Shown piece after piece: positions 5,127 to 56,934 of a DNA stretch of 64,000 nt. The DNA comes from Capsaspora owczarzaki ATCC 30864 (lineage: Eukaryota; Opisthokonta; Filasterea): assembly GCF_000151315.2 (NCBI RefSeq), contig NW_011887296.1:1025095-1089094 (forward strand). Reading direction: 5' to 3'. Under the pieces are notes generated by a model. That model was not told the DNA's origin and did no database searches. It saw only the letters and a list, made by a program, of their open reading frames with translations. Numbering within the stretch: the stretch's first letter is position 1; every line of letters starts with the position of its first letter. Position numbers and translations under genes: made by a program.

Positions 5127-8100
5127 ATGCTCGCGTCTTCAGCTGGTGCTGCTGCGCCAAAGCCCCCGCCGCGGCGGCCCCGCTCGGGATCGGTCGATAC
5201 CGCCGTCCCACTAGTGCTCTACTTGCGAGTGTGGGCAAATTCGGCCGTCGTCGCCGCCGAGTCGACCACCCGCAATGACGCTGCTCAATTCGGCTCAGCT
5301 CACGACGCGGCCACCACTACCGCAGGTCTGTCTTCCACCCCTGCCCCGCGTGCGTCCTTCCGTTCTGGATTGGCTTGCTGCTTTGCTTATTGTTGTTGCT
5401 GGTGAAGCATTGAGACTCATATCTGCTCATTCAAACTGCAATACTCTTTCGCGCGCGGTTTTTGAATCACTTTTTACACAACCAGAGCGCAATGTCACAA
5501 CGGGACTGTCGGCCGACCAAGAGCTGCTCGTCGATGCGCTCGTGCTGGAAGTGCCCACGGGCCGCTTGGCCGCAGCCGGTCTGCCCAGTGCCCGTGCAGC
5601 GCTGCACCGCGCAAGGATTGCACGGATTCGTCGCGAGTTGTTTGTACTGGAAGTCGAGCGCGCGCGTCGCCTCGCCATGCTCAACGCAACACTGCAGAAG
5701 GTTGCTACGGTCGCCAGCCAACTGCTGACGGCGTCCGAGGCGGCTGCGGCGGCTGCGTTGGCCGGTGCGGGACCTGGCGCTGCCTCCGATGCAGAATCGC
5801 CATTCGCAGCGCTTGCCAATGCCGCGAGCAAGTTTGGCCTGCTGCCACGATCAAGCAAGGCACTTAATGCCGGTGCGCTAGCCTCGCCAAGTTCGACAGG
5901 CTCTATTGCAGATGTGGCCGCGTCGAAAACGGGACCGCGCTCGTCGCCAAGCAACTCTGTCTTTTACTTTCCATCGTCATCGCCTTCTCCGGGACAGCCT
6001 TTTGACCAACCCTCATCATCAGCAGCTGCCGAAGAATCTGGGATGGATGCTTCTTCTGGGTCGTTGGACAAGACTGACAAGCTTTCCTTGGACAAGTTGT
6101 CCTTGGACAAGGTGTCTGTCGACAAATTGCCGCTCACTACTACTCCGCCAGGACAATCTCCTGCGCCAGTCCTCATGATGGTGCCGCACGTCACGTCGCC
6201 GCTTGTTGAGCAACTGTTAACGCTATCGCGTGCTGGAGATGCGGCGACGCTGTCAGCGCGGCTGCAGCAACAATACGGGATGGCCGGTGCTCTCCAGCAC
6301 TCGCAACAACTACTGCAACAACTGGGCAATCCGCTGGCGGTTGTGCCCCAGCTCTCGCAAGAGCAGGTCGCTGTACTGCGTTTCCAGCGTTGGCAGATGG
6401 ACAGTCCTCTAGTCAGCGAATTCTTGTTGCTTCACGGCCTCGATCCGAGCGACTTGGTTGACGACCCACTCGTGCAGGCACGGGGCCTCGCATCTCGTCC
6501 ATCTCGGAACTTTGCTCATCTGTCAACGTCCACGCACGGCCAAACCGCTGCGCTCTCCTCGCATTCACGGCATGCGCGCGTCGCAAGCATGACGCGCATG
6601 ATGATCCACGGTTCAAGTCGCTCGCATGAAAACGAAGGCGGGGTTGCGGAGGCCAGTGTGAATGGAGCGGGTGATGCGAGTTTGGACGCACCAACTCGTG
6701 AAGTACGCGTATGTCGCGAACATTTGTTGCAGTACTTTTGCGGCCTCGGCCGTGTCAACGACAGCATCCGCAACCGGGCCCGCGAGTCCTTGTACTCTGC
6801 CATCCAGTCCATCGCCGACGACCAGACTCTGCAGCAGCAATCGTCAGAGGATGCTGCCGCAGTCGCCGCACCGTCCGTCTTTTCATCCGACATTGCACAC
6901 ACCGTCACGTTGTCGATCGGCTCGGTGGACCTCCCGGCTCCCCGCGACACCTTCCCATCGTTGGTCGGCTCGTTTGCTTGGATGGAAGCAAGGCTCTACT
7001 ATGGCAGTACTCTGCTCAACCAGCCCGGAACCGCCTTTGCCACGTCCGCGCAGAAAGTCACCGCGTTTGCCGACCGACTTCTCTTTCACAATTTCAAGAT
7101 TGACTTTGGCGTGGCTCTCCATTCTGTGCCTCGCGGCACTCGCATCCAGCTCACATTGGTCTCGGCACCACGCGCACCAACAGTGGCAGCTGTCGTTGCG
7201 AGCCGTATAACAAGCGCGGGTGATGCGACAGCGACCAATAACAACAGCAACATGGCTGCACAATCAACAAGCGCGTTCTCCTCATCAAGCGCAAGTACCT
7301 CCGCCGGCGGTGTTCCCCGCCTGGCTACCGTCACGCCGGTCTTGTCCACAACATCTCGAGTGGTGGCCTGGGCGAATATTGCACTTGTTGACTGCGAGGC
7401 CAACGTTGCTCAAGGGCAGCTGCATGTTCGGCTGTGGGATGGCATGCAGCCGTCTCTCTATGGCACTACCTCGACCACGCGGTCGCCGCTGGCGGCGACA
7501 GCGCATGTCGCACTTCAGGCCTTTAGCCACAAAATCTTTTTCGTTGATCCTTGGTCCTCCAAAGACCCTCCTTCTCCTTCGCAAGCTCGCAAACAACGTC
7601 GCGCACATCCTGCGATTCGACGTGGCACGGTATCGGTTGCGACCTCTGCTGAGGAAGCAGCGGCAAAACCGTTTCGGCACAGCGATAGCGCTGACGCATT
7701 GCTGCTGCTGCAGCAGACATCATCATTGCCTTCGGGTGAAGACGAAAAGGAAGCCTCGACCACCAGCCTTCCCAGCGAGTCCCATAGCTCGGAAAGCCAC
7801 GAGTGCGACGGGGACGCTGCAACAGTTTCGGACACGGTGGCTGCTCCCGAACCACACACCAACTCGGAGGTGCCGTCGTCGTCCCCATCCCCTCTGCCTT
7901 CAAGTAGTACAGCTGCTACTTCAAAAGACCCAGCGCGAAGGCGCCTTGGCAACGCCGAATCCAGCAGGTTGAGCACCGATCACGATGTCATTGACAAGTT
8001 GATTGCAGTTGATTGGCTCAACTCGGCGGCAGCTCGCGTTGCGATGCAGCAAATCTCCAGCACACCGACGCTGCAGTCCCCGACCGCGGCGCTGCGCCTT

Positions 8101-9801
8101 CTTGGTGGCGCTTTCCCGGACAGCACGGTTCGCGCGTTCGCCGTCTCGTGTTTGCATCGCGTGAGCGACGGCGAGTTTGTCGAGTACTCGATGCAGTTGG
8201 TGCAAGCGCTCAAGTTTGAAAACTACCATGATTCGCCGCTGGCGCGCCATTTGCTCGAGCGTGCCTTGTCCGACGACCGAATCGGCCAACGGGTGTTTTG
8301 GTATCTGCGCTCCGAAGCCAAACTACCCACGTTCCGCGAGCGCTTTTCGCTTCTGCTGGAGGTCTTTATTGCCTTGTTGGATCGAAATCGGCTCCTTCGC
8401 CTTGTCCACCAGGTTGATGTTCACGCAGAACTCGAGTACGTCGCGCAAGCGGTGAAACATGTCAAGGCGGCCTCGAGACACGCGCTTCTTCATGCCATGC
8501 TGTCTGCGATGCGACTCCCGCCCGTGTTCGGCCTTCCAATCGCTACAACCGAGCGTACCCTTGGAGAAACCTTTGCCGCGGCGCAGATGCCAGACTCGCC
8601 AGTGCTGTCTCGCGCAATGTCCGTCTCGGTGACTCGCACTCCGAGCACCCGAGGAGGGGGAGGATCGCACCGGCCTTCTGTGTCTAGCCGGCCGCGGCCC
8701 GCTGATATTGCCTCGTCTGTTTCGCTTGGGAACTCGGCTACCTTGACAGGAGCTGCGGAAGCCTCTGGGCCCGACTTTAAAATGTTTTGTGGACTCAACG
8801 TGTCCGGGTGCAAAGTGCTCGACTCGAAAAAGCTTCCCTTGTGGCTGTCATTCAAGACCACCAATCCGTTTGCACAGCCCTTCTATGCTCTGCTCAAGTG
8901 CGGTGATGATGTTCGGCAGGACATGCTCACCTTGCAGCTCATCCGCCTGATGGATCGACTCTGGAAGGCCAACAATCTCGACTTGCGCCTCATCACGTAC
9001 GACTGCATTGCCACGGACGTGAGTGGCGCTGGTGTGGGTCTGATCCAAGCCGTTCGCGATGCCACCACCCTTTCCGCCATTCAAAAACTCGTCGCGGGCT
9101 CTGCGGCGGTTTTCAAAGAAAACACCATTTCCGTGTGGCTCCGGCAGCAAAATCCGATCGAAGAGGACTATATCGCTGCGGTAGACAACTTTACCCTCTC
9201 ATGCGCAGGCTATTGCGTCGCCACCTATGTGCTGGGCATTGGTGATCGCCACAACGACAACATTATGTTGAAGAGCGACGGGCACATCTTCCACATTGAC
9301 TTTGGGCACATTCTAGGCAATATTAAGCGCAAGTTTGGCATCAAGCGCGAGCGCACGCCGTTCATTCTCACCTCAGGCTTTGCCAATGTCATGGGCGGCT
9401 CTGGCAAAGACAATGGCCAGTTCACCAAGTTCCAGGTGTACAGCTGCCATGCTTTTATGATTTTGCGGCAGAATGCGGCCCTGTTTATCAACCTGTTGTT
9501 GCTGGTACGTTTGCGTTGAGAATTTTGGGGTGCCATAGGTGGAGGTTTTTTTTCGTTTCATACTGACGTGACGATTCTGTATATCACTGTTCTGTTTTGG
9601 ATGTGCGCAATGCAGATGCTTGGCTCTGGATTACCAGAGCTACGGTCGGAAGACGACATTGCATACGTCAAATCTGCTCTTTTCCTCGACCAAAACGATG
9701 CTGATGCACTGAGGTCCTTCCAAGATCTGCTGGCCGGTGTCTTGAAGGCGGAATGGAGCACGCAAATCAATTGGTACATTCACAATCTTAAACATGCATA
9801 A
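5127..9801 (+). CDS. Class I phosphoinositide 3-kinase catalytic subunit
   Basis: Model: exons 5127-5325, 5486-9504 and 9616-9801, all in phase, 1467 residues (animal p110 is about 1070). The first 450 residues are low-complexity, Ala/Ser-rich, with a DKLSLDK-type repeat, and I cannot confirm adaptor-binding or Ras-binding domains. A C2 domain follows (SDIAHTVTLSIG to QLTLVSA), with a long Ser/Thr insert, then the helical PIK domain (DKLIAVDWLNSAAARV to FRERFSLLLE). The kinase domain has the ATP-binding lysine in ALLKCGDDVRQD, the catalytic loop GIGDRHNDNIML, the DFG motif in HIDFGHILGN and the activation loop KRKFGIKRERTPF. That basic loop is the class I signature, which allows PI(4,5)P2 as substrate; Vps34 and class II differ here. 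The protein ends in INWYIHNLKHA. The long open frame also reads through intron 1, so the ATG at 5127 is chosen because its exon splices in phase. Confidence 0.9.
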
Positions 9802-25828: not shown

Positions 25829-28345
25829 ATGGCTCAGCCAAGTCGAGACCCGAGTGACGTGTTTGACCGACTCGCTGGACTGTTCCACGACCTCGCCGAC
25901 ATGGTTCGAGAGACTGTCGCGGACGGTGCTGCACCGGGGATGCCTGTGGCTGTGGCTGTGGCTGCACCGCCACCGCTGACGCTGCCGCATGCGTCGGAGT
26001 TGCTGACGTTGGACGGCGCGCGAACGGCAGCCAAGTACGTTGCAGTCCAGGGCCAGACTGCCCTCCGCGCCATCCCCGGATATCCATCGAGCGTTGTCGC
26101 TGCTGCATCCACGGGCGCCGCGGCCGTCGCAGCAGCTGGCCTGGGCGCGCTCTGGTGGAAGTCGTCGTTCGGCGACCCTTCACATGCTGCTCCGCCTCGC
26201 CGCTGGTTCTGGTCCAGCCCAACAAACCCATCTCTAGCAAATGGCGTCAATGGCACAACAACAACAACAGCACCGCTGAATCAAGGCGGACATGAGACGC
26301 TGGCCGGTGGTGCTGCGTTTGACGAGGTCGCCATGCGCCGCAAGCGAAGACTCGCCAAGACAAGTAACGATCGTACGTTCGTTCACAGGGGAATCGGAGC
26401 AGCGTCGTTCATTCGATATGCGAGTCGAGTGCGCCGTGGTTCCTGGTTTCCATGCTACGGTGGCGCTGTTGGCACAATCTGACAACAAGCTTTTTGGCTG
26501 ATTGCTGATGTGTTTGGATTGATGACAGCTTACGTGCCAGGGACCAAGAACATTGACGGCAATTCGTGCTACATCAACGCGCTAATGCAGGCAAGGACTT
26601 GGAGAATGCGCTTCGTGGTTCGAGGGAGAGGGTGTATTGTGGGGTGCTTCGCAAGCTCTGACTTTTGGCAACCATCATCATCATCAGGCTTTCGCGTCTG
26701 TTGGGAAGCTGCACGAGTTTCTGTGTGCCCATGCAGACAACGCCCGGATATTGGGGCATGGTGGACAGCTACCTCTTGTTGTAGGCGTGGCTGACTTTCT
26801 CGATGGTATGCAACACGGAGTGGTGCTTTTGTGTTTTGTCAGGCGTTTTGTTTCATCCCTCAGCCTTGAATAACGCCATCTTGCCGTTGTTTGTTTCATC
26901 CCTCAGCCTTGAATGAGCGACAACCCTCTTCGAATTCAAAACCGCTTGCTGCGTACACTGTGCTTGATCCGCTCTGCGCAAAATATGGAATGCTCAACGG
27001 TCGGCAGCAAGACCTGCACGAACTGTTTCAATTCGTCTCCTCGACCTTGACTGACGAACTGGCAGCCATGCAGCACGCCAGCAAGCGAACACTTTCCATC
27101 GACAAGGTGAGTAGCCGCGAATTGCAGCTTGATTGATTGGGAGGTGGCTCACCCCTCTCTCCTCCACAAAAAAACAAAAAAAATTCTGATGTGTCGCAGA
27201 ATCTTGCCATCCCTAGTCGGTCTTGCCTCTCGTTTGCATCGCCAATGATTGGTCTCGTGGCGACTCAATTGGTCTGCAGCGCCTGTGGGCATGAGGGCTC
27301 CTTGAGACTCGATCCTTTCGATAACATTAGTTTGCCTTTGTATGCAGTCGATAGCGTAAGTTTGAGGATCATGGTGTTTCCATCTCTGCCATCACTCTTG
27401 CCTCCTCTCACCCATATTCCTCCGGTGTTGCAGTTCTCTCCTTCTTTGCTTGACTGCCTTGCAGCGCATTTCTCCACACAGCCGCTGGAAGGCATCAAGT
27501 GTGACAACTGCTACGACCGTGCAGTCCCATTATCGTGGCAGTCCTCCGCCAGCAACACTCCATCCAAGGCTGGCAAGGTTTCCCTTGCGGCGATGGCGGC
27601 GGCTCAAGGTCGACGCTGGCAGCCCACTTTGCGTGGTCGCGGATCCCTCCACGTTGCGCTTGCTAAACTCCCGCCAGTGTTTGCCATCCACCTCTCGCGC
27701 CTCGTGTACACGGATTCCGGCAACGTCAAGGCCGACAAGCACGTTCGTTTCCCCATGGTGTTGGATTTAGCCCCTTTTGCCTACCTGGAGCAGCAACACA
27801 ATGCAATCGCAACCATGGGCCCAGAGCCGCTCGCGCGTCTCATCCGTGCAGCAACCCGATCCACAGAAGCAGGCTCTACAGCCCAGAGTTCTACGTCCAG
27901 CGATCGCAACGCCTACCGCTACAAGCTTTCCGCGGTTGTCGTTCATCTCGGTGGTGGATCCGGCGGGCATTTCGTCACGTACCGGAAAATTAAACGCGTG
28001 TACCGTGTGCCCGCCGCCGTTGCTGCTGCTGATACTCCTTCTTCTGTTAATGCCTCTGTTTCCAGTGAAGGAACAGAGTCGTCACTTCCTGCAGGTGGAG
28101 CCGCGCAAGAAGCCGACCTAGTCAAAGAAGCCACCGCTGTCTCGGACGCGTCCTCCTCGGCAACATCCGCTGAACCTTCGACCGTCATCAAGGAGCATTG
28201 GCTGCATTGCTCGGACGATGTCGTGCGCATGGCCACCACCCACGAAGTTCTGAGCTCGCAAGCCTACATGCTGTTTTACGAGCGCGTCGGGGCGGCCTCC
28301 AGCTCCACCATTTCTGCAGGGATACAGCATGCGTCCAAGCTGTAA
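25829..28345 (+). CDS. USP30: USP30-type mitochondrial ubiquitin-specific protease
   Basis: The N-terminal region has a hydrophobic segment near residues 85-110 (SSVVAAASTGAAAVAAAGLGALWW), placed as in USP30, which is anchored in the outer mitochondrial membrane and opposes mitophagy. The catalytic Cys box is NIDGNSCYINALMQ. The finger has CSACGHEGSLRLD and CDNC. LPPVFAIHLSRL, the His box GSGGHFVTYRKI and the final HCSDDVVRMAT and LLFYERV-type ending (YMLFYERVG) follow. Like USP30, it has Ser (CSDD) where most USPs have the third catalytic Asp/Asn. The intron after the Cys exon uses a GC donor (AATGCAG|gcaagg). An exon near 26700-26815 is followed by one starting at 26908, whose acceptor region is duplicated. 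The stop is at 28343. A Ser/Ala insert separates the two halves of the His-box region. Confidence 0.9.
26847..26914 (+). repeat. Duplicated 3' splice-site segment in USP30
   Basis: The 25-base string beginning tttgtttcatccctcag occurs at 26847-26871 and again at 26890-26914, 43 bases apart. Each copy holds a complete acceptor followed by CCTTGAAT. Only the second copy gives an open frame (ALNERQP...); the first leads to a stop after about 17 codons. Confidence 0.9.
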
Positions 28346-35392: not shown

Positions 35393-38300
35393 ATGGCTGC
35401 GGCGCGATCGCTCGTTGTTGTTCTTCTCGCGCTTGCGGCGATGAAAGCGCAAGCTGACATTCACAATTTGCCAACCAAGTGGGTCAATGCGGCCAGCTCG
35501 ACTGCTCCGCAGCTGTCCACCAAGAATGTCGTCCTGTCACCTGCGCTGGGTTGGCTGACTTGCTCTGGGGCGACTGGAGGCTACTACGGTACTGGTTCCC
35601 GGTACTTTAGCGCCGAATCGCTTCTGCAAGACATTTACACGAACGAAATCACCATTCGCTACCTTCAAGAGTACCTTGCCAATGCAGGCGCCAGCGTCTA
35701 TTCGACTCGAGAGCGCTGGTTTGACACTCCCACAGAAGTCATCATCAATGACTTTGACAACACAGCTGCCAAAAAAGTGACTTACACTGCTAACAGTGGT
35801 GCTTCGTGGTTCTCCGCATCAATCGTTGCAGGATATGGCTCCGATCAACACTGGGTTGCAGGATCTACAACGGAATCCGCCCAAGCCACGTTTACCGCTA
35901 CAATTTCCACGTCTGGCTACTACCCCGTCTATATGACTTGGCCGAGCCTACTCAATCGAGGCACCCCAGACATTCGCATTACGCATTCCGGAGGCATCCA
36001 GACAATAGCTGTCCCGATGTATCAATTTGACTCCATCTTTGTGTATCTTGGCCGCTACTACTTTACTGCCGCAGCCGGAATCAAGATCGAGGTCACCAAC
36101 AAAATGCCCGTAACTTTGGTCAAATTTGCGATGGCTGATGCAGTACGCGTCGGATGCGGAGCGTCAGCCGGTATTCCGCGCTGGAAACTGTCAGCCCAGG
36201 ACTTTTTGAGCTTTATGAGTCAAAACCAGTATTCAACCCTGGGTCTTCAAGTGGCAGCCAACTCAGCGCCCACCCTTGATACCGACTACCAGGCCAGAGC
36301 CAAGTTCTCCAACTACATGTTCAACCAAAAACTGGACACGGATTTGTTGAACAGGCAAAATGGTGCTGACTGGCTGTATGCAGGTATCGGGGCCAGTGGC
36401 GGTGCAGGATCAGGTGTCTCGACTGTTACACCCTACTCGGTAGGCAATACTTGCTGTACTCGATGATAGTTGAACTTGAGCGAATTATGCTGATTCTTCC
36501 ATAACCTCCGTAGAAACCCAGCGGTATGAGCACAACGCTCTACACGGCGTGTGGCACCGCGGCAACCATTGTTCGCTCGAACGTTCAGCAAGCGACCGGG
36601 CAGAACAACAAAATTGCCAACGCCGATTCATCAAAAACGGAACTGACCCAAAACACCAACATGCCATCGTTCATTACATACACCATTGACGTGCTCAATG
36701 CCACTGAAATGGCGCTGATGGCGAAAGAATCCTACCGCGAAACGGTAAAGCGGATTGTTGGTTGTGTTCGAGCGATTGGTGAATGCACTCTGAAGGTCTC
36801 TGACTCATCGAATGATAACTATCACAAAAAACAGCTGGGTCGTGCCATCTACAAGGGCATCCACAAGTACTTTGTTCCGTCGTCTCCTACCATCATCCCG
36901 TTGCCGGTCACCAACCTTTACACCATCTCAAGAACCGACGGCGTTGCCCTCTGCTGGGTTCAACCGACTGATCCGCTGGAATCAAGTGCAACTGCAGCGT
37001 CGTACAAGCTGTACACCTCTACCGACGGTCGCGGCTGGGATGAAGGTGTCATTTTTGCGTCCAGCACCTCGGGTAATAGCGTCCGTATTGAGTCACTCAG
37101 CTACGGTAACAGCGTGTGTGGTGTCACGACCGCTGTCACGGTCGACACGCAATACTACTTCAAAGTTGCTGGAGTCAATGCCGGCGGCGAGGCTCTCACC
37201 AAGCTTACAGTTGCCGGGTACCGCAACTCTGGAGCCGGTCCTCGCATTCTCGTGGTTGATGCTTTTGACGCCGATTTTGTGCACACGAGCGACAATATCG
37301 AGGGCCGCTACACACGCGAGTACGTGTTCGAGTATGTCACCGCGCTCCAAGCTGCAGGCTATCGCTGCGACTCGGCCACCAAGAGCACTCTGCTCGACGC
37401 GACATGGGTGAACGCCTACTTGGCCAACTACCAGATTGTCATCTGGTTTGCAGGAGAGAACACTGGCATCAACGTGTTCCCTGCAGCGCATCAAGCTGTC
37501 ATCAACACTTGGATTGCGGCTGCGACCATCATCAATCCGCGGTCTTTGATTGTGACCGGTTCGCACGTCGCTTCTGGTCTTGCGGCTGCTGGTGGAGCAA
37601 GTGCAACCTTCCTTGCCAACAACCTGGGTGCTGGTTACGCTGGCGCTACTGCCAGCGCGCCATTCATTGCCCGTCAAGCGGACCCAGGCTTCACGATGAG
37701 CGGCACTGTGACGTTCAACTCGCTCATCGCGCTTGGCAACCCTTACATCGTTCAAACCCCTGACATCCTGACTGTCACTGGAGGCGGCACTGCTGCACTG
37801 TACCATGGCGCTTCTGGCACCAACATAGCTGCTGTGAGCACCGTGAGCGGTAGCTACTCGTCGTTTTTGCTCGCCATGCCATTCGAGACGATCCTGTCGA
37901 GCACCGAGCGCACGACGCTGATGACGTCGATTGTGATAAGTGTGAATCAACGACGTGCCAGCTCCGCCATTGCGGCGGCGAGTGCGAGCGCTGCGACCGC
38001 GGCGTCGACATCTCAAGCATCAGTGGCAACGCTGCTGGCAGCCACGGCTTCAGCGATGTCGTCGTCTGTGGCCTCGGTTGCTTCGAAGGCATCGGTTGCC
38101 AGTGTTGCCTCGACGTCAATTGCGTACGTGACGAGTGCCGCTTCTGCGGCATCTGCTGCTACTGCTGCCTCTGTTGCTTCTGTGGCATCCGCCGCATCAG
38201 TGGCATCCACGTCCGTTGCATTCGTCACCAGCGCGGCCTCTGCTGCTTCAGTTGCATCTGGTGCATCCGTCGCATCCACGTCTGTTGCATCCGTCGCCTC

Positions 38301-40488
38301 TGCCGCGTCCGCTGCAACGACCTCGAAGGCATCTGCCGCTTCTGTTGCCTCGGTCGCATCAGCTGCTTCTGTCGCATCTGCCGCCTCTGACGCGTCTATC
38401 GCGTCCACGTCGATTGCATTCATCACGAGCGCGGCCTCTGCTGCGTCTGTTGCGTCCGCTGCATCTACCGCAAAGGCATCTGCCGCGTCGGTTGCTTCCA
38501 TGGCGTCTGTTGCGACCATTGCATCCACGTCTGTCGCATCCGCCGCTTCCGCTGCATCTGTGGCATCCACATCGATCGCATTCGTTACCAGAGCGGCATC
38601 TGCTGCTTCCGACGCTTCTGTTGCATCTGTTGCGTCCACGTCTGTTGCTTCTGTCGCATCCGCCGCATCAGTGGCATCCACGTCCGTCGCATTCGTCACC
38701 AGCGCGGCATCTGTTGCGTCTATTGTATCAGCTGCATCCACTTCGAAAGCATCTGTCGCGTCTGCGGCATCTGCTGCTAATGCTGCTTCTGTTGCTTCTG
38801 TTGCTTCTGTGGCATCCGTCGCATCAGTGGCATCCACGTCCGTTGCATTCGTCACCAGCGCGGCCTCTGCTGCTTCCATCGCATCGGCCGCATCCGTAGC
38901 ATCCACGTCAGTCGCATCCGTCGCCTCTGCCGCATCCGCTGCAACAACCTCGAAGGCATCTGCCGCTTCTGTTGCTTCTGCCGCTTCTGTAGCTTCTGTC
39001 GCATCTGCCGCCTCTGACGCGTCTGTAGCGTCCACGTCGATTGCATTCATCACGAGCGCGGCCTCTGCTGCGTCTGTTGCGTCCGCTGCGTCTACCGCAA
39101 AGGCATCTGCCGCGTCGGTTGCTTCCATGGCGTCTGTTGCGACCATTGCATCCACGTCTGTCGCATCCGCCGCTTCCGCTGCATCTGTGGCATCCACATC
39201 GATCGCATTCGTCACCAGAGCGGCATCTGCTGCTTCCGATGCTTCTGTTGCATCTGTTGCGTCCACGTCTGTTGCTTCTGTCGCATCCGCCGCATCAGTG
39301 GCATCCACGTCCGTCGCATTCGTCACGAGCGCGGCATCTGTTGCGTCTATTGTATCAGCTGCATCCACTTCGAAGGCATCTGTCGCGTCTGTGGCATCTG
39401 CTGCTAATGCTGCTTCTGTTGCTTCTGTGGCATCCGTCGCATCAGTGGCATCCACGTCCGTTGCATTCGTCACCAGCGCGGCCTCTGCTGCTTCAGTTGC
39501 ATCTGCAGCCTCCGTCGCATCCACATCCGCCGCATCCGTCGGCTCTGCCGCATCCGCTGCAACAACCTCGAAGGCATCTGCCGCTTCTGTTGCCTCGGTC
39601 GCATCAGCTGCTTCTGTCGCATCTGCCGCCTCTGACGCGTCTGTGGCTTCTGTTGCGTCCGCTGCGACTAGCTCAAAGGCATCTGTTGCTGCTGCTTCCG
39701 ACGCTTCTGCAGCCTCCGTTGCATCCACGTCAGTCGCATCCATCGTCTCTGCCGCGTCCGCTGCAACTACCTCGAAGGCATCTGCCGCTTCTGTTGCATC
39801 TGTTGCATCGGCTGCTTCCGTAGCATCTGCCGCCTCTGACGCGTCTGTAGCGTCCACGTCGATTGCATTCGTCACGAGCGCGGCCTTTGGTGCGTCTCTT
39901 GCGTCCGCTGCAACTACCTCGAAGGCATCTGTTGCTTCTGCTGCTTCTGTTGCATCAACCTCAAAGGCATCGGCTGCTTCCGCCGCTTCGGTCGCATCCG
40001 ACGCTGTCGTGCGATCCACATCCAGTGCATTCGTCACGAGCGCGGCATCTGGTGCTTCTGCTGCATCAACTACATCCACATCTGTGGCGCGTGTGACGAG
40101 AGCGGCTTCTACTGCTTCTAGTGTAAGCGCTGACTCTGCAACAAAGACAACACTCGCCTCCAAAGCGTCTGGTACCTCTACCGCAGCATTCTCTGCAGCT
40201 TCTGCAGCTGTCAAAGCTGCGAATCGTCCGACCAGCTTCCCGATCGGCCCGGTGGTTGGTGGCGTGGGTGGTGGCGTTTTGCTGCTCCTTTTGATTGTTC
40301 TGCTTGTCGTCCTGCTCCGTCGCCGCCGCCACCCCACGAAATCCCAGAAACCCGGTTCGGCGGAAAGCGATATCGCTCAGAATCCTGTCGCGGAAGATTC
40401 GGTTGGAACATTTGACAATCCTCTCTTCCACCAACAGAAAGGCAACGATTTCGGTAGTCGCGAAGGCGTTGGATTCTGGGTTGTATAA
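35393..40488 (+). CDS. Surface protein: amidase-like, golvesin-like ectodomain on an Ala/Ser stalk
   Basis: Two exons, 35393-36439 and 36514-40488, join in phase 0 to about 1673 residues. A signal peptide comes first (MAAARSLVVVLLALAAMKAQ). Residues 45-110 (VVLSPALGW, ITIRYLQEYLANAGASVYST then RERW) look like the start of a bacterial N-acetylmuramoyl-L-alanine amidase, but the usual zinc-binding GH after LSP is missing. Residues 115-250 (WFSASIVAGYGSDQHW, SGYYPVYMTWP, LGRYYFTA, MADAVRVG) resemble the golvesin/xanthan-lyase module. The amidase C-terminal part seems to resume after it (MPSFITYTID, GRAIYKGIHKYF). Then come an FN3-like domain (PVTNLYTISR to YYFKVAGVNAGG) and an alpha/beta xanthan-lyase-like domain (ILVVDAFDADF to TVTFN). 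About 750 residues of Ala/Ser/Val/Thr repeats lead to a membrane helix (GGVGGGVLLLLLIVLLVVLL), an RRRR stop-transfer and a tail with FDNPLF, an NPxF-type endocytic motif. Enzyme activity is doubtful; a cell-wall or polysaccharide-binding surface receptor or adhesin is my inference. Confidence 0.75.
37960..40190 (+). repeat. Coding Ala/Ser repeat with about 620-bp higher-order unit
   Basis: Codons GCN-TCN-GTN dominate, built on a 9- to 15-base theme. The marker cctcgaaggcatctgccgc recurs at 38321, 38948 and 39566, so the array has a higher-order period of 627 and 618 bases. The first two units are nearly identical along their length, including TSIAFITSAAS and TAKASAASVASMASVATIAS; the third diverges after about 150 bases. 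Confidence 0.9.
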
Positions 40489-40960
40489 TCAACTCGGGCA
40501 TTCCCCTGCCGCTCGCGCTGCTAGCTGCTAGGATTGACCCTATTTGTTGAAGAGGTAGCCGGACTTCAGTTGCCACTCTCTTGAGCTTGCTTTTCATGTT
40601 TACGGTTTGGCTGTTACGTGTTTCTTGTAAAGTATCAATATTCATTATCTTTGTGAGTAAATACTCCTGCGACTTGCCTTGAAAGTTTGTATTGAGCAAC
40701 AAGGAATTGGTTTGACTATTACATGTTTGGCGTTGTACAGCTTTGCATACAACAGCAACCCGCTAACTATAACGAACGAAGTGACCTTAGAAGAGTCACG
40801 GAGATCTACAAAGAGTGGTTGGACAACCTTGAAGGACAACCTTGAAGGAGGGTGCGAAACTATAACGTCGTTGACCCAATCATTTGGGGGGGGGGGAAAC
40901 CAAACGAGGGATTCAACCAACAAACTTGCCCAGAAAGGAATAACAAAAGTTTCAAAGGTG
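40489..40960. other. Convergent intergenic space
   Basis: 472 bases between the surface-protein stop and the stop of the seven-helix gene. A g-run (40885-40900) and a tandem aaccttgaaggac duplication (40827-40852) are the only visible features. Confidence 0.45.
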
Positions 40961-42151
40961 TTAAGATGTTTCTGGAGGCGAATCAGCTGCGGGCGGCGCG
41001 CCTGGATTCGGCTGGGCAACTACCGAGTTGGGAGCGGGGGACTGCATCCCAGTCGGCACGAATTCCTCGACGCCGACGACAACTTGCTCGTCATCCATCT
41101 CCTCCTCGAGTTCGACATTGTATTCGGTATACTCGACGGTGGTGGCTTTGGGAGTATTGCGCCCGGAATCTCCAGAGGCATGCGTGCTTGCCTTTGAGCC
41201 GGGGTGGTTGCGCTCGTCGTACGTGTTGCCCCTTCGGCCGCGACGAGGGGCATGTGTAAGCATGGTCATGGCCAACCCGGCCTCAAAGACGTCCTCTTCC
41301 TCCTGCCTTCGGACAAACCAGCTGGTAATAACATCGAACACGACCGCGCAAAAAATGGGCGATGTGATGCCGGTATTGAGGAGCAGGAAGACGGCGCGGT
41401 AGTAGTACTTGCTCGAATCGATTACGAATAGCAAGGCAAGGTACGAGAGCAGGCAGCAGACGGCAAAAATCAGAGCAGGCCGCCCAGCTCGGAACTCGTT
41501 AAAGGACCGTCGCACATCGCGCAGCGCGTGCGTCCACCACAAGGCCATTGCGGCACAGTAGATTCCAATGAAGCAGTTCAACGAGTAGTTGAGCACCTTG
41601 GTCCTGGTGTAGCACACTTGAATGACTTGGCCGTTCGCCAACACGAGCGGGCCCAACGAGGTTTCACCCGCGGTTGAATTGACAATGCTGAGAACGAGCA
41701 TGGGCACGTAGATGACCCCGACGCCCAGAATCTGGATGAAGGTTCGGTCAATCTTCCGGTGGGTGGCTGCAAAGCGGGAGCTGAGAAAGTCGAGCACAAT
41801 CCATCGCATAAACAGGCGGTAGAGCAAGCAGGCGGAAATCAGCCCCATGCCAAAGGTCACAAAAAACCACTGTCGCCACAACGCGCAAGCACTGAGCACG
41901 GGGTAGTCGTTTGGAATGAGAATTTGTGAGTGCAGCTCGGCCACGAAGCTAATGATGGCGGCCGAGGCTCCAAGAAAGAGCGACCAGGGCTGCTTGGCCT
42001 TGAACGGCTTCCAATCGCGATGGATGACCATGTACAGCGCGACCAAAAACTGGAGGCTCAAGACCAGCGTGCACATGGCAACCGCCCAGACCTCGAATGG
42101 GTTCCAGTAGCTGGTCATGTCCGTGTAGATGATTTCGTCGTCGCCTGCCAT
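40961..42151 (-). CDS. Seven-helix membrane protein resembling RGS1-type receptors
   Basis: A single exon encodes 396 residues. Seven hydrophobic helices are visible: WAVAMCTLVLSLQFLVAL, FLGASAAIISFVAEL, WFFVTFGMGLISACLLY, FIQILGVGVIYVPMLVL, LNYSLNCFIGIYCAAMAL, PALIFAVCCLLSYLALLFV and AVFLLLNTGITSPIFCAV. The N terminus is short and outside with no signal peptide; the C tail is about 110 residues, acidic and Pro/Ser-rich. LLYRLFMRW after helix 3 and ALRDVRRSFNEFR before helix 6 recall plant AtRGS1-like seven-helix proteins, but no RGS domain follows. I infer a G-protein-linked receptor of that loose group; ligand and partner are unknown. It is intronless, while most neighbours have introns. 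Confidence 0.7.
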   Translation of the reverse strand: MAGDDEIIYTDMTSYWNPFEVWAVAMCTLVLSLQFLVALYMVIHRDWKPFKAKQPWSLFLGASAAIISFVAELHSQILIPNDYPVLSACALWRQWFFVTFGMGLISACLLYRLFMRWIVLDFLSSRFAATHRKIDRTFIQILGVGVIYVPMLVLSIVNSTAGETSLGPLVLANGQVIQVCYTRTKVLNYSLNCFIGIYCAAMALWWTHALRDVRRSFNEFRAGRPALIFAVCCLLSYLALLFVIDSSKYYYRAVFLLLNTGITSPIFCAVVFDVITSWFVRRQEEEDVFEAGLAMTMLTHAPRRGRRGNTYDERNHPGSKASTHASGDSGRNTPKATTVEYTEYNVELEEEMDDEQVVVGVEEFVPTGMQSPAPNSVVAQPNPGAPPAADSPPETS

Positions 42152-54879: not shown

Positions 54880-56934
54880 CTACTTGGCAAGAGAGGCTGG
54901 GCGGTACTGTTCGGAATGCGCAAGCACCTTCTGGCACAGGCCAAAGAACTGGCGATGGTGGGCGTCGTGCAGCGGAATGAGCGACAAGTACAGCGACGCC
55001 GTCAAGATGTCGAGGTAGTAGATGCTGGGCGCCGACTCTTGAGCATACTTTTCAGTGACAAACTGCAAAAAGATGTGGCGGAGGTGCGCAAGCAATGCCT
55101 CGTCGTCGGCATTGTCTTCTTTGTCGAGCAGCACAAAGTCGTAGCCCCAGAGCGACTGGTACAGCTTGGCCAAGTCGTAGTTGCGGTCGCCTTGCATGGT
55201 GACATGGCCACCGAGTTGGCCGCGCATGTCAATCATGACCAGGTTGCCGTCCGACTTGAGAAGGACGTTGGAAAAGACGGGATCGCCGTGGATGACGTGC
55301 GAGTACACTGCAAGCTTCTCTGCCTCGTAGTTGTCAAGAGCGGCGACAATGGTGTCAAAGGCGGCCTTGACGCCGACAGGATCGATGGCGTCGTAGATGG
55401 CGCGCGACTTGGCGTAGCGGGCGCGCACCTTCGGGGCGTAGTTTTGGTACAAGTCGAGCGTGGCAGGGTCGGGGCGGTCTCCCGGGTGGCCTTGCGACGA
55501 ATGCAGCGCGTGCAGCGCGCGAAGAAGCTTGAGCAAGCGGCCATCGGTCAAGCAGCGGTTGATGGAGAGATGCGAATACGTCACGCCCTTGACCTGCTCG
55601 AGCTTGATGGTGACAATGTTGGTCTTTTGCTCGGTGGACGACTCGAGCAGGCGTGGGAAGAGGTGGGCAATGTCTGCAGGCATGTGCTCGTAGAAGAAGC
55701 GCTCGCCGCGAATAATGTCGTTGTGCGACGACTTGATGACATAGTTGTCGACAAAGGTGACCTTGTTAAAGTTGCGCGCTTCAATGACGCCGAGCTGACG
55801 CGCAGGCACCGACGAATCGCGTCCCGAGGTGATGAGCGACCAGCCGAGCTCCTTCTCCGTGTCGCTAAAGGCGTTGACGGCCAAGTCGTCAACGTAAATG
55901 TCTGCGTGGGGCTTGCCGAAATGCAGTTCGTCGTACGGGATTTGGTTGGTCTCGAGGGCGTTCAGCGTGATCCAGCCAATGTCCTTGATGACGGCGCCGA
56001 CGTTGCCACCGTGGGTTTTCATGCGACGCGCCGTCGAAATGATAATGTAGTGTCCCGCAGCCTTGAGCTCGCGCACCAGCTGGATGTTCTTTTCCATGGG
56101 CTGGCAGCTCGTGTAGTCGCCTTCGACCAGCGGGTAGGTCAGGAGCGTGTTGTCGAGATCAAAGCAAAAGCGCATCGTTCGTGGGGACTTGATCTTGCCG
56201 ATGCGAATGTTGTGCAAAAAGTCTGTGAGCTGGTCTGGCGAGCCGACGCAGTAAAAGTCGCTCACATTGACTCCCTTGAAGGGCTGCTTTTGCGACAGCA
56301 TCAAGCGAATGATGGCAGAAGTGTAGTACTCGCCAGTCGAGTCGACGGACGTGTCGAGCTGCTCGACGCAAAACTGCTTGAGCAGCTCGCCGCTGGCAAA
56401 GCCGTAAGCGCCGGTATTGGCCCAGGTCGAGATGGGCATCTTCTCCTTGATGTCGAGAATGTTCTGCTGGTCGTCCATCGCAATGTAGCTGAACACGGGC
56501 TGGCCAATCTTGTCCTCAAAGCAAAAGGAGGCGTTGACGCCCGGATCGAGACGGCGAAAGTCGGCAAGAACATCGCTAAAGTATATGGTGTCGCAGTCGA
56601 GGCAGATGGTGCGGCGCTTCAAGTCGTCCGGCTTCATGTGCTGGAGCACGACAAACACGGTTTCTGCCGGGCCGCGCGTCTCAAAGTCGAGCGTGACGAC
56701 GTTGATGCGGTGCTTGGGATACTGCTTGCAGACACGCTTCTTGAAGTGGAAGATGTTCTCGACCGAGGTCATGACAGCCATCCAGATGACGTCGTTCGAG
56801 CGGTCAATGCTGAGGTTGTCCAGCAGCCAGTAGAGCATCGGATGGCCGACAATGTTGATCAAGGGCTTTGGGAAGCGGTAGTTGTCGCGCTCAAACCGCG
56901 AGCCAATGCCGCCCATCGGGATGATAATGTTCAT
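54880..56934 (-). CDS. Intronless fusion: nucleotidyltransferase + HAD phosphatase + APH-like kinase
   Basis: A single open frame of 684 residues holds three domains. Residues 1-240 are a sugar-phosphate nucleotidyltransferase: MNIIIPMGGIGSRF, FPKPLINIVGHPM, the metal site LDCDTIYF and NTGAYGF. Residues 258-370 are a HAD phosphatase of the capsule EcbF/BcbF group: FDLDNTLLTYPLVEGDYTSC, IIISTARRMKTHGGN and a PYDELHFGKPHADIYVDD motif. Residues 430-684 are an aminoglycoside-phosphotransferase/choline-kinase-like domain with VIHGDPVFSN (about residue 550) and VMIDMRGQ, the HGDxxxxN and metal-Asp motifs. Together they suggest synthesis of an activated polyol or sugar derivative for a surface polysaccharide or lipid; the substrate is unknown. 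The architecture is of bacterial capsule-locus type, and the gene has no introns where most neighbours have several, so transfer is likely. A plus-strand frame of 784 codons opposite is a shadow. Confidence 0.85.
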   Translation of the reverse strand: MNIIIPMGGIGSRFERDNYRFPKPLINIVGHPMLYWLLDNLSIDRSNDVIWMAVMTSVENIFHFKKRVCKQYPKHRINVVTLDFETRGPAETVFVVLQHMKPDDLKRRTICLDCDTIYFSDVLADFRRLDPGVNASFCFEDKIGQPVFSYIAMDDQQNILDIKEKMPISTWANTGAYGFASGELLKQFCVEQLDTSVDSTGEYYTSAIIRLMLSQKQPFKGVNVSDFYCVGSPDQLTDFLHNIRIGKIKSPRTMRFCFDLDNTLLTYPLVEGDYTSCQPMEKNIQLVRELKAAGHYIIISTARRMKTHGGNVGAVIKDIGWITLNALETNQIPYDELHFGKPHADIYVDDLAVNAFSDTEKELGWSLITSGRDSSVPARQLGVIEARNFNKVTFVDNYVIKSSHNDIIRGERFFYEHMPADIAHLFPRLLESSTEQKTNIVTIKLEQVKGVTYSHLSINRCLTDGRLLKLLRALHALHSSQGHPGDRPDPATLDLYQNYAPKVRARYAKSRAIYDAIDPVGVKAAFDTIVAALDNYEAEKLAVYSHVIHGDPVFSNVLLKSDGNLVMIDMRGQLGGHVTMQGDRNYDLAKLYQSLWGYDFVLLDKEDNADDEALLAHLRHIFLQFVTEKYAQESAPSIYYLDILTASLYLSLIPLHDAHHRQFFGLCQKVLAHSEQYRPASLAK

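Follow-up and report, generated by a model that had tools for sequence, protein, structure and literature searches.

Nine Capsaspora owczarzaki genes place a bacterial-type, amidase-derived ectodomain without its active site on kinase, tyrosine-motif or tyrosine-less cytoplasmic sides

The window analysed here, a stretch of 64,000 nucleotides from contig NW_011887296.1 of Capsaspora owczarzaki ATCC 30864 (GCF_000151315.2), carries, at contig positions 1060487-1065582, a gene of three exons with an open frame of 1643 codons and a product of 1643 aa (Table 1). The initial annotation had drawn two exons and had overlooked the in-frame intron 2, retention of which adds 30 aa. As seen by comparison with paralogues, introns of 76-92 nt lie at the identical phase-0 position, before LGR, in all eight copies that were modelled, and an intron in the region of intron 1 is present in seven of the eight, with none in C2c. 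We note that the intron 1 of C13a, at 42 nt, is doubtful. At the sequence level, the conservation of the exon junctions across paralogues speaks for a single gene and not for exons of separate genes.

Table 1. Features of the window gene (positions are those of the window)
Feature	Positions	Strand	Basis
Exon 1, aa 1-349	35393..36439	+	open frame, GT donor
Signal peptide, ~aa 1-21	35393..35455	+	sequence, by eye
Pseudo-amidase, N-terminal half	35510..35755	+	alignments to bacterial relatives; fold from paralogue
Golvesin/xanthan-lyase CBD-like module, aa 122-253	35756..36151	+	
Pseudo-amidase, C-terminal half, aa 254 to ~440, spanning both introns	36152..36876	+	Amidase_3 profile, site alignments
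Intron 1, 74 nt, GT..AG, phase 0	36440..36513	+	paralogue comparison
Exon 2, aa 350-426	36514..36744	+	
Intron 2, 90 nt, in frame, stop-free	36745..36834	+	site common to paralogues
Exon 3, aa 427-1643, and stop	36835..40488	+	
Fibronectin type III domain, approximate borders	36892..37227	+	AF2 model, Foldseek
GATase1/ThuA-like domain, approximate borders	37234..37968	+	
Stalk, aa 801-1565, 89% A/S/V/T, tandem repeats	37957..40251	+	composition
Membrane helix, aa 1566-1587	40252..40317	+	mean hydropathy 2.92 over 20 aa
RRRR stop-transfer	40318..40329	+	sequence
FDNPLF tail motif	40411..40428	+	sequence
Out-of-frame tyrosine-motif relic, DSGLYNQLGH in +1	40472..40501	+	nucleotide alignment

The ectodomain had been described as an amidase-like fold split around a golvesin-like module, and three kinds of evidence agree with this description: a match to the Amidase_3 profile at aa 341-427 of the window protein (below the cut-off), a Golvesin_C/Xly CBD-like module with a profile score above the cut-off and a CBM-like fold, and an amidase fold in the model of a paralogue, from which we assign the amidase part to the Amidase_3 fold. 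The proposed FN3-like domain was recovered as well, since an AF2 model built for the window protein itself gave FN3 domains as Foldseek matches. The last domain, previously called xanthan-lyase-like, instead resembles GATase1/ThuA, and no polysaccharide-lyase domain was seen among the matches listed, apart from the CBD portion of 6f2p. Values of dN/dS indicate purifying selection on the ectodomain, with 0.31 for the window copy (C5w) and its close copy C5b and higher values (0.41-0.55) among the very close C2a, C2b and C9rtk.

The genome contains nine copies of this family on five contigs (C5w, C5b, C2a, C2b, C2c, C9, C13a, C13b, and C19), three of which are already among its annotated proteins; no CAOG number was found for the window gene. 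Each of the nine has a hydrophobic leader comparable with the signal peptide expected in the window protein, an Ala/Ser/Val/Thr-rich stalk, and a membrane helix, whereas the cytoplasmic sides differ: two copies carry a tyrosine kinase, four carry repeated YxxL/I/V/M (YxxΦ) motifs like those of ITAM/ITIM tails, and three are tyrosine-less. The kinases of C19 and C9 match PF07714 (E = 1.8e-47 and 4.4e-47, respectively, in the first kinase exon), contain HRDLAARN, and follow a membrane helix in one frame, making both copies receptor tyrosine kinases. The presence of such receptors in two sister genes that share the ectodomain strengthens the earlier suggestion of a host surface receptor or adhesin. 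The two kinases fall in different large Capsaspora kinase clades (single clade rejected, p = 1.8e-7), and the ectodomains of one kinase copy and one YxxΦ-tail copy are 97% identical. Further, C19 and C9 each contain one single-base ectodomain frameshift in GCF_000151315.2, which may be an error or recent decay. YxxΦ-type tyrosines make up 4/4 of the tail tyrosines in C13a, 3/4 in C2a, 3/5 in C2b, and 5/6 in C2c, in tails that are partly homologous to each other and with motif spacing unscored. SH2 domains are present in the Capsaspora genome, and the repeated motifs of these kinase-less tails could serve as substrates for kinases and as docking sites for SH2 domains.

A serious competing possibility, to which we give somewhat less than even weight, is that these proteins are adhesins and not signalling receptors, in which a mucin-like stalk and a glycan-binding head glue cells to the substrate, to snail tissue or, during aggregation, to each other, with tails that merely anchor or recycle the protein. 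Consistent with this, the tyrosine-less window copy, C5b, and C13b have stalks of 356-1207 aa, compared with 136-277 aa in the other six, whose cytoplasmic sides hold a kinase or tyrosines. However, the same head carries tyrosine kinases in two copies and repeated YxxΦ motifs in four.

In the window protein, the long stalk (put at about 750 residues before), the single membrane helix, here a hydropathy peak, and, behind it, RRRR and FDNPLF were all located where the initial annotation had them. The 56-aa tail contains no kinase domain and no in-frame tyrosine, but the out-of-frame relic has an in-frame counterpart in C13a (ESGLYDQLGH). The motif F[AD]NPL[FL] occurs in six of the nine tails and is missing from C5b and both kinase copies. 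FxNPLF was considered as a general Capsaspora tail code and rejected: of 14 pattern matches (0 for the reversed pattern), four are family members, and none of the other 10, inspected by eye, is a receptor tail. A search for PTB/PID domains in Capsaspora returned no match and was uninformative, giving no signal anywhere. That a tyrosine-tailed receptor gene is turning into a pseudogene in the window copy, with the tail frameshift as its first lesion, is rather unlikely. The relic and the similarly short tail of C5b would fit decay, but the frame is open over its whole length, FDNPLF and RRRR are retained, and dN/dS is 0.31 for the C5w/C5b pair. In addition, nucleotide alignment indicates that the tyrosines of C13b disappeared in another way, a pattern more suggestive of repeated loss in genes still in use than of decay alone. 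As judged from its tail sequence, the window copy is best read as signal-poor and is probably endocytic.

At the amidase site, the His-Glu-His zinc ligands and catalytic Glu, which read H-E-H-E in 45/45 relatives checked, are replaced by L-Q-G-Y in the window protein: LSPALGW stands at the first His site, LLQD at the bacterial ED, and YAGIGAS at the second His site, with the catalytic Glu absent. The eight aligned Capsaspora copies retain none of the four residues, except for one Glu in one copy, and in 9/9 copies neither His ligand nor the catalytic Glu remains. The absence of the zinc-binding GH, noted at the outset, is thereby borne out, and the loss across all nine copies lends weight to the idea that the protein may bind rather than cut. 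Further, different subfamilies have different substitutes, the pattern expected once a pocket is freed. It is quite improbable that the head is an enzyme of another kind, with a shifted site or a GATase1-like activity, digesting extracellular polymers at the cell surface; the preserved fold and the purifying selection would allow this, but the uniform loss of the site and its variable replacement argue against it. On the best reading, the head derives from a transferred wall amidase that no longer works as an enzyme.

In the tree, the Capsaspora copies make up a single clade (100/100) whose neighbours are bacterial sequences or unlabelled ones from metagenomes, and this strengthens the proposal of a transferred gene. 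The clade is placed between two groups of bacteria, on a long inner branch, in a tree with a midpoint root only, and no bacterial donor clade can be named from it. Each search for relatives scored ~8000 candidates, most rows being without an organism name; among the 52 relatives listed, a eukprot label was found only on three Capsaspora proteins, and no other eukaryotic owner was labelled among the best 120 of 569 relatives listed. The listed kin are bacterial or unlabelled besides Capsaspora's own. Contamination or an assembly chimera of bacterial DNA, which the bacterial-type domains might suggest, has a negligible probability given the GT..AG introns within these domains (one at a site conserved in 8/8 modelled copies), the spread over five contigs, the continuity of two copies with kinase exons, and the three annotated proteins in the same genome.

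Overall, we consider it fairly probable that a bacterial secreted Amidase_3/golvesin/FN3/GATase1-like protein entered the Capsaspora lineage in a single event, ceased to be a working amidase before the family expanded or early in that expansion, and was turned into a stalked receptor head that binds a ligand. Duplication, conversion, and shuffling would have placed near-identical heads on differing cytoplasmic sides, with the kinases acquired by two joins, or by a single join followed by exchange of the kinase, and with the kinase-less YxxΦ and tyrosine-less tails as other outcomes of the shuffling. The window copy would bind the same kind of extracellular glycan as its sister copies but, because its tail is frameshifted, would be incapable of tyrosine signalling, and it would probably serve as an uptake or decoy receptor via FDNPLF.

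If correct, this history would be a clear case, from a single-celled organism closely related to animals, of a catalysis-dead bacterial enzyme recruited to do the sensing in tyrosine-kinase receptors, and would bear on what is sensed by the many receptor tyrosine kinases of Capsaspora and on how amidase-type microbial receptors arise. PMC13171883 reports that Capsaspora aggregation requires clathrin endocytosis, with the receptors still sought, and mentions NPXY membrane proteins of Capsaspora; the family supplies candidate NPxF-tailed receptors for this process. Judged by title and start of abstract, none of the open-licence PMC papers listed treats the family, and the receptor tyrosine kinase survey of Suga 2012 may include the kinase copies.

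With respect to known systems, bacterial proteins share the domain order of nearly the whole Capsaspora ectodomain (Amidase_3 split by a golvesin module, FN3, GATase1-like) but keep the full catalytic set in the 45 rows checked, and one of them (P0002) ends in a Por secretion domain in place of the stalk, helix, and tyrosine tail. Their annotation names include 'N-acetylmuramoyl-L-alanine amidase', 'xanthan lyase', and 'golvesin C-terminal-like domain-containing protein'. The Bacteroides lectins Cbeg4 and Cbeg5 (PMC9166713) likewise combine a golvesin-type CBM (IPR033803), which binds N-glycans on an array, with FN3 but are secreted bacterial proteins; by analogy, the golvesin module here may bind carbohydrate. 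Bacteroides-type rows of similar size (P0036, P0038, and P0052) retain the amidase site. Among the Capsaspora receptor tyrosine kinases, in whose large clades the C19 and C9 kinases nest, the family differs by its ectodomain of bacterial origin and its kinase-less window copy. Internalization tails of the LDL-receptor type carry FDNPxY; FDNPLF likewise lies close behind the membrane helix and may work like such a signal, but it has Phe at the Tyr position and belongs to an unrelated ectodomain. Vertebrate paired immune receptors have near-identical heads and unlike tails, an arrangement that C2b and C9rtk resemble by analogy, with no kinship claimed. Some animal PGRPs, Drosophila PGRP-LC among them, have no amidase activity and are transmembrane microbial receptors built on a wall-amidase fold that has lost the zinc site; PGRPs are Amidase_2, whereas the sequence match of the Capsaspora family is to Amidase_3, combined with a carbohydrate-binding module and with tyrosine-kinase or YxxΦ tails in sister genes. 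It is a tentative and rather doubtful extension that the family is the Capsaspora counterpart of the animal PGRP system, in which a horizontally acquired, dead bacterial wall amidase with a glycan-binding insert would serve for pattern recognition and be wired to tyrosine kinases and ITAM-like tails, alongside tyrosine-less decoy or uptake copies such as the window gene, as a paired-receptor logic outside animals.

A profile search of the Capsaspora owczarzaki genome (27.46 Mb, 29 contigs) detected nine Golvesin_C loci, all of which gave additional matches to the ectodomain (whose other parts are a split Amidase_3-type fold, FN3 and a GATase1/ThuA-like last domain); in the control for this search, one of 14 genomes gave a match (Bacteroides ihuae). 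All nine gene models, i.e. the window copy C5w and eight paralogues named by contig, have a hydrophobic leader, a single strongly hydrophobic helix and, preceding it, 136-1207 aa consisting of 64-89% A/S/V/T, a stretch that in C2a and C2b takes in a Cys-rich piece. This stalk type is not confined to the family, because a non-family gene (L025, G000:C9:324000-327900) also has an Ala/Ser-rich stalk, behind a Cys-rich piece. The named search matches included the C. owczarzaki ATCC 30864 proteins CAOG_05635, CAOG_09051 and CAOG_01892; in CAOG_09051 (L013), a part of the ectodomain (half-amidase, FN3 and last domain) is present in tandem repeat. The initial annotation gave the window gene two exons, which translate to 1673 aa. 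Comparison with the paralogues revealed that 36745-36834 is a further intron, by chance stop-free and in frame, and splicing it out leaves a protein of 1643 aa. An intron of 76-92 nt before LGR occupies one shared phase-0 site in 8/8 modelled copies, a count that leaves out C13b (CAOG_09051, used as annotated and not remodelled). Immediately behind the gene lies a 396-aa frame (40961-42151, minus strand) with several hydrophobic segments and no Pfam match; the window also holds a PI3/PI4-kinase, PIK domain included (5275-9516, plus strand), a piece of ubiquitin carboxyl-terminal hydrolase (27137-28342, plus strand) and, in one frame, consecutive weak nucleotidyltransferase, HAD-like and APH-like matches (54880-56934, minus strand).

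We aligned the active site of eight Capsaspora copies with 45 relatives, chosen by us from 168 non-Capsaspora proteins found in searches; many are unlabelled metagenome proteins, and all named ones are bacterial. At four sites, which we take to be the zinc ligands and catalytic Glu of Amidase_3, all 45 relatives read H-E-H-E, whereas the window copy reads LQGY, bearing out the zinc-site loss noted in the initial annotation. C5b and C13a also read LQGY, C19rtk MQGL, C2a and C2b GPVI, C9rtk GPYV and C2c YEKL; with C13b included, both His and the catalytic Glu are absent from 9/9 copies. The amidase-part structure comes from a paralogue that shares 38% identity with the query, not from the window protein. 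When the eight Capsaspora rows were placed in a tree with 45 other sequences, they formed a single clade (100/100) on a long branch with a bacterial group on either side, two in all (midpoint root only). Because of this single clade, the several bacterial phyla among the names of the relatives listed, and the lack of any other eukaryote label among them (the public searches scored limited candidates), the data favour a gene transfer, as first proposed, and a single bacterium-to-eukaryote event, old enough for introns and duplications. Ectodomain dN/dS was 0.24-0.31 when C5w was compared with C5b, C13a and C19rtk; C2a, C2b and C9rtk, which are very close to one another, gave 0.41-0.55. Along the alignment of C5w with C5b, the synonymous difference drops from 0.06-0.30 (first five windows of 100 columns) to 0.00-0.05 (last four), the pattern that gene conversion would produce.

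Two copies carry a cytoplasmic tyrosine kinase (Pfam PK_Tyr_Ser-Thr, E 1.8e-47 and 4.4e-47).

Paralogues that are receptor tyrosine kinases and share the same bacterial-type ectodomain (L010 and L011)
Copy	Location	Strand
C19rtk	G000:C19:147470-151375	-
C9rtk	G000:C9:804276-808204	+

In C19rtk, one open frame spans FN3, last domain, stalk, helix, RRRR and the first kinase exon (HRDLAARN), and the remaining kinase sequence lies in further exons; in C9rtk, the same arrangement starts late in the ectodomain, downstream of its frameshift. Each copy has one single-base ectodomain frameshift in this assembly. The best PDB kin of the C19rtk kinase are DDR2, DDR1 and TrkB. We placed 77 kinase pieces, out of 176 matches, in a tree. 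The two kinases fell in separate clades, one with 40 rows (100/100) and the other with 21 (100/97), and a common clade was rejected (AU p 1.76e-7); there were therefore either two head-kinase joins or a later swap of kinase. The ectodomains of C9rtk and the kinase-less C2b are 97% identical (dS 0.041).

The C2b tail holds GVYDTL, STYDTL and ITYASI, and C2b shares with C2a a Furin-like Cys-rich piece ahead of the helix (E 1.7e-7 in C2a). Across the C13a, C2a, C2b and C2c tails, 15 of 19 tyrosines have a YxxL/I/V/M context, an enrichment over shuffled tails (P = 0.0004, 0.010, 0.022 and 0.0003) whose four P values are not independent tests because the tails are partly homologous. F[AD]NPL[FL] occurs in 6/9 tails and is absent from C5b, C19rtk and C9rtk. 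The window tail matches that of C13a as far as FxNPLFHQQ and differs beyond: in the alignment at the nucleotide level, a gap of 35 nt is followed by a +1-frame relic, DSGLYNQLGH (40472-40501), the counterpart of ESGLYDQLGH in C13a. C13b has NLGDAS in place of GLYDAL, then GLRE and a stop. The two tails having lost their tyrosines in different ways, there were two or more such losses with FxNPLF and RRRR retained; C5b also lacks NPLF. We interpret the window gene as a signal-poor variant that would serve in uptake or as a decoy, though it may instead be a young pseudogene.

The head, then, preserves an amidase fold without its site, contains a golvesin module, bears signs of purifying selection and sits on a stalk and helix, to which sister genes add a kinase or tyrosine tails. 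The kinase copies may phosphorylate the YxxL/I/V/M tails, which SH2 proteins (34 matches) would then read, and FDNPLF may drive uptake. Capsaspora aggregation is reported to require clathrin endocytosis, in a paper that also mentions membrane proteins with NPXY and describes the receptors as still being sought (PMC13171883). Aggregates are reported to upregulate receptor tyrosine kinases whose ectodomains contain FN3 or DERM (PMC3870316). The head would bind glycan, which may be of bacterial, snail or Capsaspora origin, by analogy with the golvesin-type CBMs of Bacteroides Cbeg4/5, which bind an N-glycan motif; Cbeg4/5 are described as lectins without an enzymatic domain (PMC9166713, section 6). 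Three "Xanthan lyase"-type proteins from our searches (P0036, P0038 and P0052; 967-1005 aa), the first two of which carry the name Bacteroides, resemble Cbeg4/5 in size and domains, yet their amidase site is complete.
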